Made by a program: the position numbers and the translations under genes. This document shows positions 5,830 to 42,242 of a stretch of 64,000 nucleotides of DNA, piece by piece. Numbering within the stretch: position 1 is the stretch's first letter; every line of letters starts with the position of its first letter. The notes below the pieces were generated by a model that did no database searches, was not told the DNA's origin, and was given only the letters and a program-made list of their open reading frames with translations. This DNA is from an uncultured Muribaculaceae bacterium. Its GTDB lineage: Bacteria > Bacteroidota > Bacteroidia > Bacteroidales > Muribaculaceae. Location of the stretch: the NCBI GenBank assembly GCA_947628305.1, contig CANQZG010000005.1, positions 124,001 to 188,000 of the forward strand, given 5' to 3'.

Positions 5830-5901
5830 GCGCCCGTAGTTCAATGGATAGAATATTGGATTCCGGTTCCAACGATTGGGGTTCGACTCCCCACGGGCGT
5901 A
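5830..5901 (+). tRNA. tRNA-Arg(CCG)
   Basis: A full cloverleaf can be drawn. The acceptor is 5830-5836 with 5894-5900 (first pair G-U), the D stem 5839-5842 with 5851-5854, the anticodon stem 5856-5860 with 5868-5872, and the loop carries anticodon CCG at 5863-5865. The T arm has TTCGACT between GGGG and CCCC. CCA is not encoded. The 3' part from 5884 is the bacterial half of the prophage attachment site, and integration leaves the tRNA intact. Confidence 0.96.
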
Positions 5902-5907
5902 CGACAG
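5884..5907. repeat. attL core (24-nt direct repeat)
   Basis: Identical to 42219-42242; begins CGACTCCCCACGGGCG and ends TACGACAG. It covers the 3' T loop, the T stem and acceptor 3' strands and six bases beyond the tRNA. Bases on either side differ between copies, so 24 nt is the exact limit of identity. Confidence 0.95.
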
Positions 5908-30798: not shown

Positions 30799-31152
30799 TC
30801 ACACCTCATGTATCCTGATACCGTGCACCCACAGCATCAGCTTGCGCTTGATGACATACTCCTTTGTGCGCACGCCCTTGGTGTCCTCCACGACGGTACG
30901 GCCCGTTGCCGTGTCGGTGTAGACGAAATCGGCCACATAGCGGCACGGGCGTTCGCCCTCCTGCGCCGGAATGAGCGTATACGGCACCTGCTCCCGGATG
31001 TCCGAGACCAACCCCGCACGCTCCATCAGGCGAAGTTCCGCCGCCCGACGCGCCTCCCTGCGCGAGGCATAACCGCCCGTGCGACGCGCCCGGTACTTGT
31101 TGCCACCGCCACCAGCCGACAGTGCCTTTAACGCTTCTATTGTCATTATCAT
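30799..31152 (-). CDS. DUF1064 family phage protein
   Basis: 117 residues. NKYRARRTGGYASRREARRA, LVSDIREQVPYTLIP, YVADFVYTD and VVEDTKG match DUF1064, which has the D...ExK arrangement of a small restriction-endonuclease-like fold. A role in recombination or Holliday-junction processing is inference from that fold. Two starts (31152 and 31146) are possible. The tRNA-like RNA lies just upstream on the same strand. Confidence 0.85.
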   Translation of the reverse strand: MIMTIEALKALSAGGGGNKYRARRTGGYASRREARRAAELRLMERAGLVSDIREQVPYTLIPAQEGERPCRYVADFVYTDTATGRTVVEDTKGVRTKEYVIKRKLMLWVHGIRIHEV

Positions 31153-31174: not shown

Positions 31175-31299
31175 TGGCGGGAAAGGCGGGGGTCGAACCC
31201 GCGATAGCCGGGGACATCATAAATACCCACATAAAACTGACTCATTAACCTAATTAAAACTCGTCCCCGGCCGCGCTGCCACACACGCGCCTCATTCCC
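31175..31299 (-). ncRNA. tRNA-like RNA with the anticodon arm replaced by a long stem-loop
   Basis: Reading the minus strand from 31299: acceptor GGGAATG pairs with CTTTCCC (31179-31185) in 6 of 7 positions. A D arm GCGC-GTGTGTGGCA-GCGC has the GG needed for T-loop contact. A 9-bp GC stem GCCGGGGAC/GTCCCCGGC (31263-31271 and 31207-31215) is capped by a 47-nt AT-rich loop instead of a 7-nt anticodon loop. Then come TATC, a canonical T arm GCGGG-TTCGACC-CCCGC, discriminator G and an encoded CCA (31175-31177). Position 8 is A rather than T. It lies between an HTH gene and the DUF1064 gene, with a -7 box ending 5 nt before base 1. It may be a decayed phage tRNA with an insertion, or a functional tRNA mimic. 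Confidence 0.7.
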
Positions 31300-31303
31300 A
31301 TGT

Positions 31304-31311
31304 CAAAAATA
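31304..31311 (-). promoter_or_regulatory. -7 box of the tRNA-like RNA
   Basis: TATTTTTG on the minus strand, then ACAT, then the GGG that begins the acceptor stem. The expected start is 5-7 nt after the box, at the first base of the RNA. No TTTG is found at the usual -33 distance. Confidence 0.55.
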
Positions 31312-31436
31312 GACCGGGGTGTTTCACAACGGCCCGGCCCGTCAGAAATTGAACCTATTGCGAGAATAAGTATCATTTTCAGCATTATTGAAAAGATAGT
31401 CATATAGTCATATTGTTGCTTATGCTTGCTCTTTAA

Positions 31437-31802
31437 TCATCCTCCGCCCCTGACGCGTGAGACCATCGGTGTCGGCATCTCCGACCCACCGTCGCCCCTC
31501 ATCGTCAGCACCTCCTCTATGTCGGTCGCCCTGTAGAGCACCTTCGAGCCAATCTTGACCGGGACGAGATAACCATCCTTGGCCCACCTCCACAGTGTCG
31601 AGAGTGTCACGTTAAGTGCCTTGGCCGCCTCCTCACGCGTCATCGTCGGGCGTTCGCGGTGACTCCTGACAGCCTCCTCCGTCTCCCTCTGGCACGCACG
31701 CCACATCCACGCCACCGCGTCCCTTAGGTCGGCCGCGCTGACCACCAGCATCACGCCCGGCTCGCCCGATGCAATCTTCTCCATCAATGCCGCGTCCATC
31801 AT
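31437..31802 (-). CDS. HTH (MerR/excisionase-type) DNA-binding protein
   Basis: 121 residues. The HTH_17-like core MTREEAAKALNVTLSTLWRW followed by DGYLVPVKIGSKVLYRATDI is the winged helix-turn-helix of excisionases and small phage regulators. The N-terminal 50 residues are a helical extension (MLVVSAADLRDAVAWMWRAC). It is in the early leftward operon and could be the excisionase or an early activator. Its start overlaps the previous stop (ATGA). Confidence 0.82.
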   Translation of the reverse strand: MMDAALMEKIASGEPGVMLVVSAADLRDAVAWMWRACQRETEEAVRSHRERPTMTREEAAKALNVTLSTLWRWAKDGYLVPVKIGSKVLYRATDIEEVLTMRGDGGSEMPTPMVSRVRGGG

Positions 31803-33020: not shown

Positions 33021-33052
33021 TTTGTTATTTCGATGCAAATATAATAGATTTA
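33021..33052 (+). promoter_or_regulatory. Second rightward promoter overlapping operator 1
   Basis: TTTG 33021-33024, 20 nt, TAGATTTA 33045-33052 (one mismatch to TAnnTTTG). The -7 box is the left half of operator 1, so repressor binding would block it: likely autoregulation. Confidence 0.5.
33036..33043 (-). promoter_or_regulatory. -7 box of the leftward early promoter
   Basis: TATATTTG on the minus strand directly downstream of operator 1. A TTTG at 33068-33071 is 24 nt upstream, longer than the usual 19-21. Operator 1 lies in the spacer, so bound repressor would close this promoter. Confidence 0.5.
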
Positions 33053-33090
33053 AATCTAATAATATTGCAAACTTAGTAGATTTAAATCTA
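33045..33090. promoter_or_regulatory. Twin phage operators
   Basis: TAGATTTAAATCTA, a perfect 14-bp palindrome, at 33045-33058 and again at 33077-33090. Centres are 32 bp apart, about three helical turns, placing both on the same DNA face. They lie between the divergent early and repressor genes and are the likely binding sites of the 33670-34362 repressor. Confidence 0.8.
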
Positions 33091-33106: not shown

Positions 33107-33673
33107 ATGCGCCCTCATAATAGACTCTCAATTATTTCATTATTTATCTCTCTGGTTGCTCTCGTATTAGCAATCATATCGGTCTTGTGGAACAAGTCTG
33201 AAAATGAGATTGTTAACTATTTGGGCATTACCATGGGGATATTGTCTTTATTGGTAACTGTTCTTATTGGATGGCAAATATTCGTATTGATGGATTTGAA
33301 AAATTACCATTCTGCTTTTAAAGATTTGTCTAAACGTGTTGATTACAACGACAATTTAACACGTGGGTACGCAAGCCTTGGATATGCCCATACAAATATT
33401 GGTTGGCTAACTGAAGCCAAGAAAGAAGAATGGTTTGTCGAATACATAAGGCATTCCTTGTTGGCTTTATCTTTCTTTTCTAAAGCCGAAGATTATAAGA
33501 CATGTTGGGCGATTGTGAATGAATTAACCGAGAATATCAATAAAGCCGATGCAATATATTATAACGGCTTTAAAGACAATAAAAAAGAATGGATAGATTC
33601 CATTGGAGATGTAAATTCCAGTGCAAGAATAGAAAATTTCAAAGACCTTGTTAAAATAATATCCTCATTATGA
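33107..33673 (+). CDS. Membrane protein coupled to the repressor
   Basis: 188 residues, not recognised. Two N-terminal membrane helices (LSIISLFISLVALVLAIISV and GILSLLVTVLIGWQIFVLMD) and a cytoplasmic helical domain (YASLGYAHTNIGWLTEAKKE, SLLALSFFSKAEDYKTC) that resembles a tetratricopeptide-like bundle. AT-rich. The stop overlaps the repressor start (ATGA), so it is made together with the repressor in the lysogen, consistent with an exclusion or signalling role (inference). Confidence 0.72.
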   Translation: MRPHNRLSIISLFISLVALVLAIISVLWNKSENEIVNYLGITMGILSLLVTVLIGWQIFVLMDLKNYHSAFKDLSKRVDYNDNLTRGYASLGYAHTNIGWLTEAKKEEWFVEYIRHSLLALSFFSKAEDYKTCWAIVNELTENINKADAIYYNGFKDNKKEWIDSIGDVNSSARIENFKDLVKIISSL

Positions 33674-34362
33674 TAGGAACAGTGAAAGACCGCGTTATAG
33701 CATTCATCCAAAGCACTAATTTAACGGTAAAGGGATTCGAGCGAAAGGCAGGATTAAGCAATGGTGCCGTCTCAAAAATGGGGAATAGTCCTCGTTCAGT
33801 CATTGTCGAGAAAATAATAGATGCTTTCCCTAATTTAAATCGAGATTGGCTGCTTACAGGCGAAGGCGAAATGTTAAACAGTGACACGCCCCCGGCAGCC
33901 ACCCGCGCCGAGAACCTCATCCCGTTCTACGATGCCGAGACATCGGGCGGCTACAACGGCAGGGTCGGCGACTCCACCGCCGACGCCCCCCTTGCGGGTT
34001 ACATAAGCGCGGGCGGATGGTTCGACGGCAGGGAGACCGCGGCAATCCGACACATCGGCGACTCCATGCTCGAGTACCCCGACGGCTGCATCCTCGTCGT
34101 ACGCGAGGTGCATGACCGCCACCTCCTCATCCCCGGGCGCGTCTACGTCATCGAGACAAGCGAGTACCGCGTCACCAAGCGGCTACAGAAAGGCCACTCC
34201 CCCGAGTACATCGCCCTCTACTCCTCCAACCCCGAGAAATACGAGGACGGCCGTCTCGTCTACGAGCCGTTCGAGGTCGCCACCGACGACATACGCCGCA
34301 TCTACAGCATCCTCGGCTACATCGTCAACCAACACGGCGCATACAACCTCATCAGGCCATAA
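33670..34362 (+). CDS. CI/LexA-like phage repressor (HTH plus peptidase S24)
   Basis: 230 residues. The N-terminal DNA-binding domain (TVKGFERKAGLSNGAVSKMG, then LNRDWLLTGEGEML) is typical of Bacteroidetes phage repressors. The C-terminal S24 domain has catalytic Ser in HIGDSMLEYPDG (about residue 132) and Lys in RVTKRLQKG (about residue 170), so RecA-stimulated self-cleavage and SOS induction are expected. Base composition changes sharply at about 33890: the HTH half is AT-rich and the S24 half GC-rich, marking a recombination joint between domains. Confidence 0.92.
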   Translation: MIGTVKDRVIAFIQSTNLTVKGFERKAGLSNGAVSKMGNSPRSVIVEKIIDAFPNLNRDWLLTGEGEMLNSDTPPAATRAENLIPFYDAETSGGYNGRVGDSTADAPLAGYISAGGWFDGRETAAIRHIGDSMLEYPDGCILVVREVHDRHLLIPGRVYVIETSEYRVTKRLQKGHSPEYIALYSSNPEKYEDGRLVYEPFEVATDDIRRIYSILGYIVNQHGAYNLIRP

Positions 34363-38059: not shown

Positions 38060-38902
38060 ATGACAAAGAAAAACCAAATACAGATTTTCAACGACACCAA
38101 GGTAAGAACCGTTTGGGACAGCGACAAAGAGGAATGGTATTTCTCGGTCGTCGATGTCGTCGCCGTACTTACCGACAGTGCCAACCCAAACACATATTGG
38201 AAAGTACTGAAAAACAGGCTTAAAAAAGAGGGAAATGAAACGGTTACAAATTGTAACCGTTTGAAACTCCCTGCCGCCGACGGCAAGATGCGTCTCACCG
38301 ATGTCGCCACAACCGAGCAGATGTTCCGTCTCATTCAATCCATCCCCTCCCCCAAAGCCGAGCCGTTTAAACAATGGATGGCGCAAGTGGCGGCAACCCG
38401 CATCGACCAGATGCAAGACCCCGAACTGTCAATCGAGCAAGCCGTTTCCGACTACCGCCGTCTCGGATACTCCGAGGAATGGATAAACCAACGTCTTCGC
38501 GGTATCGAGGTCAGGAAGATGCTCACCGACGAATGGAGACGCGGCGGCGTGGATGACAGACATTACGGATTCCTCACCGACTTCATCACACAACAGTGGA
38601 GCGGCATGAAAACCCGTCAATACAAAGATTACAAAGGATTGACAAAAGAATCCCTTCGCGACAACATGACGAACATCGAACTCGCCCTCAACACCCTCGC
38701 CGAGGCTTCCACGACCGAAATCTCCAGGCAACAGAACCCCGAGACCCTCAACGAGCATATAAAGGTCGCCAAGAGTGGCGGGAACGTGGCGAAAGTCGCC
38801 CGGACCGAACTGGAATCCAAACTCGGACGCAGCGTAATCACCCCCGCCAAAGCCTCCGATTACATCACAGGCCAAGAACCGCCCAAAGAAATTGAATCAT
38901 GA
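38060..38902 (+). CDS. DinD/BRO-like phage (anti)repressor family protein
   Basis: 280 residues. The N-terminal BRO-like domain (VWDSDKEEWYFSVVDVVAVL, NPNTYWKVLKNRLKKEG, LTDVATTEQMFRLIQ) is joined to a helical C-terminal part (GYSEEWINQRLRGIEVRKML, GGNVAKVARTELESKLGRSV) like that of DNA-damage-inducible protein D. BRO-N proteins act as phage antirepressors and DinD antagonises RecA filaments; which applies here is not decided. It has an elaborate leader (pseudoknot plus palindrome), suggesting tight control. Confidence 0.8.
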   Translation: MTKKNQIQIFNDTKVRTVWDSDKEEWYFSVVDVVAVLTDSANPNTYWKVLKNRLKKEGNETVTNCNRLKLPAADGKMRLTDVATTEQMFRLIQSIPSPKAEPFKQWMAQVAATRIDQMQDPELSIEQAVSDYRRLGYSEEWINQRLRGIEVRKMLTDEWRRGGVDDRHYGFLTDFITQQWSGMKTRQYKDYKGLTKESLRDNMTNIELALNTLAEASTTEISRQQNPETLNEHIKVAKSGGNVAKVARTELESKLGRSVITPAKASDYITGQEPPKEIES

Positions 38903-40619: not shown

Positions 40620-41975
40620 CTAATCCCCCAACAGGCCGATAGTCTCACGCATCATCTCCTCATCGATGTCACGGTAGCGGGCAAACGCCTTGCTCCCCTC
40701 CGTGTGCCCCGACAGCTTCCCCACAAGGTTCGGGTCCTTGACCCGCTTGTACAGATTCCCGATGAACGTGCGACGGGCGATGTGACTGCTCGCCACCTCA
40801 TTAATCGGCCGCTGCTCCTCACGCCCCGTAGTCGGGTTCAACACCGTCACCGCCCTCGTCACCCCGCATGCCGCGAACACCCTTTTTATCGCGTCATTAT
40901 ACCTCTGCGGAGAGATAAACGGGAACAGACGCCCCCGGTTGTCCATCCCCCTGTACCTATCCACAATCTCCGCCGCACGCCGATGCAACGGCACACGTAT
41001 CACCTCCGGCCTGTCCCCCCTCGTCTTCGACGCAATGTACTCCACCCCGCCACCTATTATATTGGACAGCGTCAGGCGCATCAGGTCCGACACACGGCAA
41101 CCCACATAACACTGGAATATAAAGATGTCACGCTGCACCTCCAGCTCACGGTTATAAGACAGGTCAGTGTCCGCTATAAGGTCACGCTCACCCATGCTTA
41201 TATAATAAGGCGTACCGTAAACCTGCGATGTCACACCCGAATACTTCGCGAACGGCCTGTTCCCCGTCAACTCCTGCGCGTTACACCAGTTGAAGAACGC
41301 CCGGAGACACTTGAACATCCCCACAATCGTATTATTCCCCTTCCTCAACGGCCTACGCCCGCCCTCATAGATTTCAGGATACCTCAACGCCACCTCCGGC
41401 TCTGAACGCAGAAACAACTCAAACTCATTCACATCGTCCACACTGAACGTATCCACGTCCACCGACCACCCCCGACCTCCCCGCGCCGTGCGGTAAGCCT
41501 CGAACCGTTGCAACGCACGCATCAGCACCTCATAATTCTTCACCCGCCTTTCCGAATAACTATGCTTCTCCAGGAACAACCCGAACAAATCATACACCGT
41601 CGCGTGCTCTACCTCCCCACGTCCGTCACCATACACCTCCGGCCACCTGAAACTATTATACCGCTCCGTGATAAACCCCGCGCTCAACAACTCCCTCGGC
41701 GTCTCCTCACACAACTCAAGCAAGAACTGCTCCACGCCGATAAGTTCACGCTCCGCCGCACGCAACTCCCGCGCCTCCCTCTGATTCGCACGCGGCATTA
41801 TGAACCGGCCCACGTTCCGCCTGTCCCTCGAGCCGTCGTCCATCCGGGACGGGTTCACATACACCCCCGACCTCAACCTCAACTGAACCCCGCGCCCCAC
41901 CGAGAGACGCAACATAACCTCCGCCTTACCGTCGCCGTTCAACCTCGCCGACACACTCCGTCTGATAGTCGCCAT
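40620..41975 (-). CDS. int: Tyrosine-type site-specific recombinase (prophage integrase)
   Basis: 451 residues from the ATG at 41975 (MATIRRSVSARL). An N-terminal arm-binding domain (VMLRLSVGRGVQLRLRSGVY) and SAM-like core-binding domain are followed by the catalytic domain: Arg in GCRVSDLMRL (about 293), Lys in SKTRGD (about 316), HxxR in SSHIARRTF (about 395), His in LSGHTEGSKAF and nucleophile Tyr in FARYRDI (about 432). All catalytic residues are present. Bacteroidetes phage-type integrase; the gene ends 10 bp from the convergent cargo gene and starts 244 bp from attR. Confidence 0.96.
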   Translation of the reverse strand: MATIRRSVSARLNGDGKAEVMLRLSVGRGVQLRLRSGVYVNPSRMDDGSRDRRNVGRFIMPRANQREARELRAAERELIGVEQFLLELCEETPRELLSAGFITERYNSFRWPEVYGDGRGEVEHATVYDLFGLFLEKHSYSERRVKNYEVLMRALQRFEAYRTARGGRGWSVDVDTFSVDDVNEFELFLRSEPEVALRYPEIYEGGRRPLRKGNNTIVGMFKCLRAFFNWCNAQELTGNRPFAKYSGVTSQVYGTPYYISMGERDLIADTDLSYNRELEVQRDIFIFQCYVGCRVSDLMRLTLSNIIGGGVEYIASKTRGDRPEVIRVPLHRRAAEIVDRYRGMDNRGRLFPFISPQRYNDAIKRVFAACGVTRAVTVLNPTTGREEQRPINEVASSHIARRTFIGNLYKRVKDPNLVGKLSGHTEGSKAFARYRDIDEEMMRETIGLLGD

Positions 41976-42031
41976 TGTTAAAATATCCTGCAATAGTTAA
42001 TTCAATATTCCATCGCAAAGATACCCATTTC

Positions 42032-42218: not shown

Positions 42219-42242
42219 CGACTCCCCACGGGCGTACGACAG
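42219..42242. repeat. attR core (24-nt direct repeat)
   Basis: Exact copy of 5884-5907. It marks the right end of the prophage and runs into the left arm of the host terminator at 42233-42282. Confidence 0.95.

Follow-up and report, generated by a model that had tools for sequence, protein, structure and literature searches.

A non-decoding tRNA-like RNA in a Muribaculaceae prophage and the anticodon-less tRNA look-alikes of other phages

Transfer RNAs are a front line between phages and their hosts: bacteria cut or modify tRNAs against infection, and phages reply with spare tRNAs and repair enzymes. Viral mimics of tRNA include the tRNA-like structures of plant viruses, which combine a CCA end with an upstream pseudoknot domain. 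The topology of the bacterial RNA YrlA includes a Ro60-binding stem, and its gene lies with rsr and rtcBA. YrlA has been proposed as an inhibitor of an anticodon nuclease (PMC7790460), which is the logic of a decoy. In B. cereus, tRNA-Other is a pseudo-tRNA that is unused in translation, lies within a larger RNA and is tied to a mobile island (PMC3399842). The tRNAs of T4, T5 and jumbo phages are thought to blunt tRNA-cutting defences (PMC7824862). A 2021 survey of structured RNAs from human microbiomes reports 3161 candidates, some of them near phage genes in Bacteroidetes (PMC8040213).

The RNA described here is encoded on the minus strand at 31299–31175 (125 nt) of a 64-kb stretch of DNA from an uncultured Muribaculaceae bacterium, the whole of which we call the window. 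An initial annotation of this DNA had reported all cloverleaf elements except the anticodon loop at this position, and direct reading together with a scripted layout reproduces them exactly. The acceptor stem is formed by GGGAATG (31293–31299) and CTTTCCC, the latter followed by the discriminator G and an encoded CCA (31175–31185); six of seven pairs form, with a single T.T mismatch at 6:67. These strands were both read directly and laid out by script, as were the D arm, GCGC-GTGTGTGGCA-GCGC, with GG in its loop (31273–31290), and the canonical 5-bp T arm, GCGGG-TTCGACC-CCCGC (31186–31202), which also gives a loose-threshold Rfam match. In place of the canonical anticodon arm, with its 5-bp stem, 7-nt loop and U33, the scripted layout has a perfectly paired, GC-rich 9-bp stem (GCCGGGGAC at 31263–31271 with GTCCCCGGC at 31207–31215) that closes a 47-nt AT-rich loop (31216–31262). 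With such an arm the RNA cannot decode, as the initial annotation had said. The linkers are AG between acceptor and D arm, G between D arm and 9-bp stem, and TATC between that stem and the T arm. The canonical tRNA features present are the acceptor stem, D arm, T arm and CCA end. The U8-A14 tertiary pair is absent, the residues being A8 and G14 by position, and because both bases are missing and one acceptor pair is mismatched, the three-dimensional likeness to tRNA may be below that of the relatives.

Folding energies do not single out the cloverleaf. The constrained tRNA-like fold has −46.4 kcal/mol against −47.3 kcal/mol for the minimum free energy structure, which is another fold, so the evidence comes from the motif and from related RNAs. 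A descriptor that combines the acceptor with the D and T arms was run on 1500 simulated copies of the 64-kb window (first-order Markov); nineteen matches scored at least as high as the window element, and CCA was found in 23 of the 1113 matches of any score. If score and CCA are assumed to be independent, about 3e-4 such matches with CCA are expected by chance per window. The presence of a tRNA-like structure here, unlikely to arise by chance, is well supported.

Standard models did not call the element. ARAGORN made no tRNA or tmRNA call at this position, and Rfam at threshold, with the tRNA model RF00005 included, did not call it either. At a loose threshold only the T arm matched, to tmRNA positions 346–363; with 13.9 bits against a tmRNA threshold of 47 and a negative ARAGORN result, the RNA has neither the model score nor a called tag-encoding frame. 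The best matches of the element in its own genome are 30–34 nt long at 79–80 per cent identity, to the T and acceptor parts of host tRNAs. These partial matches fit the earlier view that the element was not copied from a host tRNA; the tRNA-Arg of the same window (5830–5902) was checked and, as stated there, has no encoded CCA. Our searches found no close homologue of the window copy, only matches the size of a T arm or acceptor. BLAST of the element in the host's family returned two short matches, in loci L091 and L093; both are tRNA-like RNAs with abnormal anticodon arms in the early regions of other phages. L093 carries two different tandem tRNA-likes in one phage spacer, on the minus strand at ~1334–1417 and ~150 nt further; they are 84 and 126 nt long and the second ends in GCAA.

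The element had been called phage-borne, and we find it inside a complete-looking temperate prophage (5884–42242, or ~5.9 to 42.2 kb of the window) integrated in tRNA-Arg(CCG). A 24-bp att repeat of the 3' end of that tRNA occurs at 5884 and 42219, and a tyrosine integrase gene (40623–41993) adjoins the repeat at 42219. A BRO-N antirepressor is encoded at 38060 in the same prophage. We rejected the idea that the element is an attachment-site tRNA remnant, since it lies in the middle of the prophage (31.2 kb). Upstream of the RNA is a gene for an HTH_17 or excisionase-like regulator (31437–31802, minus strand), and downstream is a gene for a DUF1064 or Holliday-junction-resolvase-like protein (30799–31152, minus strand), whose ATG follows the CCA by 22 nt; the replication-initiation gene comes next. 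An S24-family repressor gene (33670–34362, plus strand) diverges from this early operon. Two AGATTTAAATCT palindromes at two minus-strand TAnnTTTG motifs (33046–33089) are likely repressor operators with early promoters, and the window RNA is probably co-transcribed with the repressor-controlled early operon. Like its relatives, it thus lies in the early or lysogeny region of a temperate phage. We looked for the RNA beside DUF1064 homologues in 80 IMG/VR loci and in 25 of the 294 family genomes and found it at this place in none, so it is dispensable. A search with the upstream HTH protein gave two weak matches. One other phage with a DUF1064 gene bears a cluster of several odd tRNA-like genes (L026:217-1085).

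A TAnnTTTG box just upstream (31311–31304) had been taken as a sign that transcription could start at the mature 5' end. We do not retain this claim. Immediately before the box stands a GC-rich, GUGA-looped hairpin (31311–31340, minus strand), which ends 11 nt 5' of the tRNA-like part and parallels in position the hairpin that precedes the tRNA-likes of relatives. No −33 TTTG element lies at a spacing of 19–21 nt from the box, and one strand carries 27 TAnnTTTG motifs, the other 33. When 93 distinct relatives were tested, the box was missing from the upstream 45 nt of every one (0/93); their tRNA-likes sit in larger units, with a gene on either side. Many relatives have the tRNA-like part as the 3' portion of a longer RNA, a feature that goes beyond the initial view of the locus.

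We searched for similar RNAs using a pattern that joins a D-arm consensus to a T-loop consensus at a distance of 31–61 nt (normally 26) and leaves the acceptor free. The pattern matched at least 120 stretches in IMG/VR and four of 294 genomes in the host's family. Many matches in archaeal genomes, which we took as tRNAs with known archaeal introns, and several bacterial matches with assembly gaps were left out of the class counts. At least six of seven acceptor pairs form in 86 of 98 distinct RNAs, and all seven form in 77; random re-pairing of the acceptors gave a mean of 4.8 and a maximum of 13 in 2000 trials, compared with the 86 observed. These 98 RNAs have 93 different acceptor 5' sequences. 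The outer T-stem pairs form in 95 of 98, compared with 13.7 on random re-pairing. Because the acceptor pairs although the pattern ignores it, these are real folded RNAs, and the acceptor and T stems covary strongly across the class. A 5-bp/7-nt U33 hairpin of any kind occurs in only 12 of 88 RNAs; the anticodon position instead holds a hairpin, either long or capped by a tetraloop, or else a large loop. The decoding arm has been selectively lost across the class. The window RNA shares the defining acceptor, D arm, T arm and replaced anticodon arm, and it is placed in this wider anticodon-less class by architecture, no homology to another member having been found. Most relatives examined score 42–60 bits with the Rfam tRNA model (threshold 29), so they are detectable as tRNAs, and annotations probably list them as undetermined or odd ones. 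Across phages, tRNA look-alikes that do not decode are widespread, structurally conserved and rapidly swapped.

The nearest downstream gene is on the same strand as the RNA in 41 of 54 relatives, and the RNA is sense to most of its neighbours. Several transposable phages carry the tRNA-like part 9–28 nt before the next start codon. Recurrent neighbour families are mostly antirepressors, repressors and regulators. No partner protein family is shared among the neighbours of the relatives, and PADLOC defence families beside them show no enrichment and none recurs.

Several further groups came to light. A homologous tRNA-like RNA with a conserved insert, ACTTT..AAAGTTCCTAT, is found in Chryseobacterium/Epilithonimonas genomes (L403:2580-2690 minus, L391, L399, L414, L425, L438); in L403 it is flanked by an RtcB-family ligase and a 583-aa protein of no known family. 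A second recurring family, mostly in tRNA-rich phages, has the common insert GGAACCNC..CANGGTGAAGGRCCAAAT (L318:8642-8743, L312, L315, L320, L336, L259, L292, L297, L304, L332). L096 (minus, ~200–305) encodes a tRNA-Leu-like RNA in which a small hairpin is inserted just before an intact TTTAGGA anticodon loop; removal of the hairpin would leave a normal tRNA. Two candidate signals were abandoned. A C-N-A tail is not a special mark, as ordinary phage tRNAs show CAA and CCA too, and the pattern TGGCAG-N58-88-GGTTCGA gave mostly chance matches in order-level genomes.

Because an RNA pattern could select its own matches, further loci were collected by homology to the transposase of transposable Bacteroidales phages. 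Within the first set, the transposase is closely preceded by a tRNA-like RNA in L353, L488, L490-L495 and L498; L489 has one with the T loop TCCGAAT, and L497 has none. Members of the second set that carry it are L532-L536, L538, L539, L541 and L559 and, in a reduced form that has no D arm, L543, L544, L545 and L560; most of the more distant members yielded none. A further search, with L398, gave no matches. Even where the transposases are similar, the phages differ in their acceptors and anticodon arms. The arms at these sites are abnormal nearly throughout, the one near-normal 7-nt loop being that of L498, with C33 in place of U33.

In transposable phages a structured 5' domain precedes the tRNA-like 3' domain. 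Type A consists of AGGGTYAGACCCAAGAGAGGGCRATCCT-NCGGCAAGAGAGCCGN, a pair of neighbouring hairpins whose loops read AAGAGA, and of a small third hairpin after them, with GCCGNAAGGC in most copies. IMG/VR has it in 24 contigs and the host's family in 15 of 294 genomes, where a reversed control pattern gave one match. Across 26 aligned copies this 5' domain is near-invariant, whereas the tRNA-like 3' domain is hypervariable. In 26 of 28 distinct copies the type A domain is followed by a GC-rich hairpin and then by an acceptor-plus-T-arm module; the exceptions are L587, which has an acceptor-like closure only, and L593, which has none. Examples of the type A composite RNA are L334:1355-1543, L091 and L566-L602. 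In type C, a pseudoknot forms between a more distant upstream segment and the loop of the hairpin that immediately precedes the tRNA-like part. Among eight phages, 98 per cent of the cells in the comparison pair and both sides have changed in 9 of 12 pairs, a level of covariation reached by none of 500 shuffles (0/500), with a 2-nt insert of L491 omitted for register and with helices chosen from these same sequences. Type C loci, each with a GNRA-type hairpin and the pseudoknot, lie upstream of the transposase in L353, L423, L488, L489, L491-L493 and L495. A third common 5' sequence, GGTCCCTCCGTCGTGAGAC..., which we call type B, stands before the tRNA-like part of L398 and L541. Rfam found no match besides the tRNA model in the type A and C example loci tested.

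The 3' modules change behind these domains. L582 and L594 have a common 5' part up to the tRNA-like RNA and unrelated modules after it, as do L585 and L574, and one compact tRNA-like module is found behind different hairpins. In the relatives, tRNA-like modules are exchanged as cassettes. The excess of structure upstream of the RNAs in general is weak (mean z −1.0 compared with −0.7 for ordinary tRNAs), and we claim 5' domains for the transposable-phage types only. No type A, B or C domain precedes the window RNA, which has the GUGA-loop hairpin only, and its membership in the composite family is thus not established.

Our preferred reading, to which we give a probability of about 0.4, is that the temperate phage makes the window element as a tRNA mimic that cannot decode, which is cut out of the early transcript and serves as a trans-acting decoy for some host factor. 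A tRNA mimic was among the options first listed for the locus and remains the best of them. Host tRNA-processing enzymes would probably excise the RNA from the repressor-controlled transcript, with RNase P cutting at the 5' end of the acceptor and the 3' end trimmed, probably by host enzymes too, to the encoded CCA. The released RNA would resemble a tRNA in its acceptor-T stack, its D arm and probably its elbow, and with its anticodon arm replaced it would be unusable on the ribosome. It would most likely act as a decoy or competitive inhibitor of a host factor by which the tRNA body is recognised. Anti-phage effectors that attack tRNAs would be the leading target candidates, because the modules are early-located, accessory and cassette-exchanged; since no protein family recurs as a neighbouring partner, the partner is likely to come from the host. 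A mimic of the tRNA body is favoured by the retention of the acceptor-T stack, usually with the D arm and its GG, by the loss of the decoding arm, by the early site and by cassette exchange. More broadly, we think it possible, at rather less than an even chance, that temperate phages encode an unrecognised class of composite RNA, in which a structured 5' domain is joined to a hypervariable, exchangeable, non-decoding tRNA mimic, expressed early and diversified by selection against host factors that are directed at tRNA; in that case the window RNA would be a divergent member with the hairpin as its only 5' part.

The main rival to a mimic acting in trans is a processing mark acting in cis, where RNase P and RNase Z would cut the early polycistronic mRNA at the tRNA-like structure and so control how abundant the product of the next gene is or how it is translated; nothing but the acceptor-T stack would matter, and the anticodon arm would drift freely. 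The same-strand downstream genes, the short distance to the next start codon in the window and in several transposable phages, and a top half that is always kept, even where syntenic phages (L543, L544, L560) have lost the D arm, all suit such a mark. We nonetheless regard it as doubtful, since most of the RNAs retain the D arm and its GG, L093 has tandem copies, and the exchange of whole modules behind the same 5' part looks like selection for diversity rather than drift. It is also conceivable, if rather unlikely, that the tRNA body stabilises a regulatory RNA whose variable anticodon or 5' domain has RNA polymerase, an mRNA or a protein as its binding partner, for antitermination or antisense, as proposed for the B. 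cereus tRNA-Other (PMC3399842). That precedent and the structured 5' domains in early operons, with the AAGAGA-loop hairpins of type A and the covarying pseudoknot of type C, speak for this scaffold; the window, however, has none of these domains. Antisense action finds no support: the mean longest match of the anticodon domains is 8.7 at their own locus, hardly above the 8.3 at other loci, and among the matches listed for complements of the 47-nt window loop there is only its own position.

Phage tRNAs are common, and the T.T mismatch, the missing U8 and A14 and the lack of a homologue could mark the window copy as a decayed phage tRNA with an insertion in its anticodon arm. Decay would strike the acceptor and T stems equally, however, whereas the stems of the class covary almost perfectly and loss is confined to the anticodon arm; what is inserted in the window copy forms a GC-rich stem of 9 bp with no mismatch. 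Ranked after the regulatory scaffold, decay is improbable for the window copy, and it is an unlikely explanation for the whole class. L096 can be read as an intron-containing tRNA, and RtcB adjoins the tRNA-like RNA in Chryseobacterium, so one could imagine that the 47-nt loop is removed and the halves joined into a decoding tRNA. Most relatives, though, have no hidden 7-nt U33 loop, and no splicing enzyme was found among the neighbours tested. To our knowledge, 47 nt is far below the size of known self-splicing introns; a group I intron would have ribozyme size and a conserved core, and the Rfam intron models gave no match at the element. We consider splicing very improbable. Least probable of all is a ligand of Ro60, that is, a bacterial Y RNA of the YrlA type. 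YrlA likewise mimics tRNA without a decoding arm, and phages with TROVE proteins exist (PMC7824862), but the window RNA matches no Y RNA family in Rfam, no TROVE (Ro60) gene is found among the window neighbours tested, and the RNA ends at an acceptor stem rather than a Ro-binding stem.

If the preferred reading of a trans-acting mimic is right, phages have a third answer to attacks on tRNA, namely mimicry without decoding, in which the tRNA body is kept and the decoding arm discarded. Some of the tRNAs called 'undetermined' or 'pseudo' in phage genomes, and easily written off as decay, may be RNAs of this kind. Cassette-like variation at a syntenic site, beside a near-invariant RNA domain, provides a natural set of variants for finding the target. 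Were the role in cis instead, the RNAs would be a case of tRNA punctuation in phage operons, of which we know of no description.

How, then, do these RNAs compare with the systems described above? Like YrlA, the phage RNA is non-coding and has T-arm, D-arm and elbow features of tRNA with no decoding arm; unlike YrlA, its ends form a tRNA acceptor with CCA, there is no Ro60 nearby and there is no Rfam match. The tRNA-Other of B. cereus is a single island-flanking gene, whereas the phage RNAs form a phage-internal, widespread and modular class. The T arm of the window RNA has its best Rfam match in tmRNA, yet the pseudoknot of the relatives lies 5' of the tRNA-like part and not inside it. The tRNAs of T4, T5 and jumbo phages decode, which the anticodon-less RNAs cannot do. 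Plant-virus structures stand at the 3' end of a genomic RNA, while those described here stand between genes in the early operon of a DNA phage. The literature we searched yielded no description of phage tRNA-likes of this kind; the type A 5' domain may be among the candidates of the 2021 survey, in whose main-text passages searched the tRNA-like module is not described (PMC8040213). While tRNA mimics are thus already known (tmRNA, YrlA, tRNA-Other and the plant-virus structures), none matches the features tested here, and there is a fair chance that the composite class deserves more than the status of a variant.
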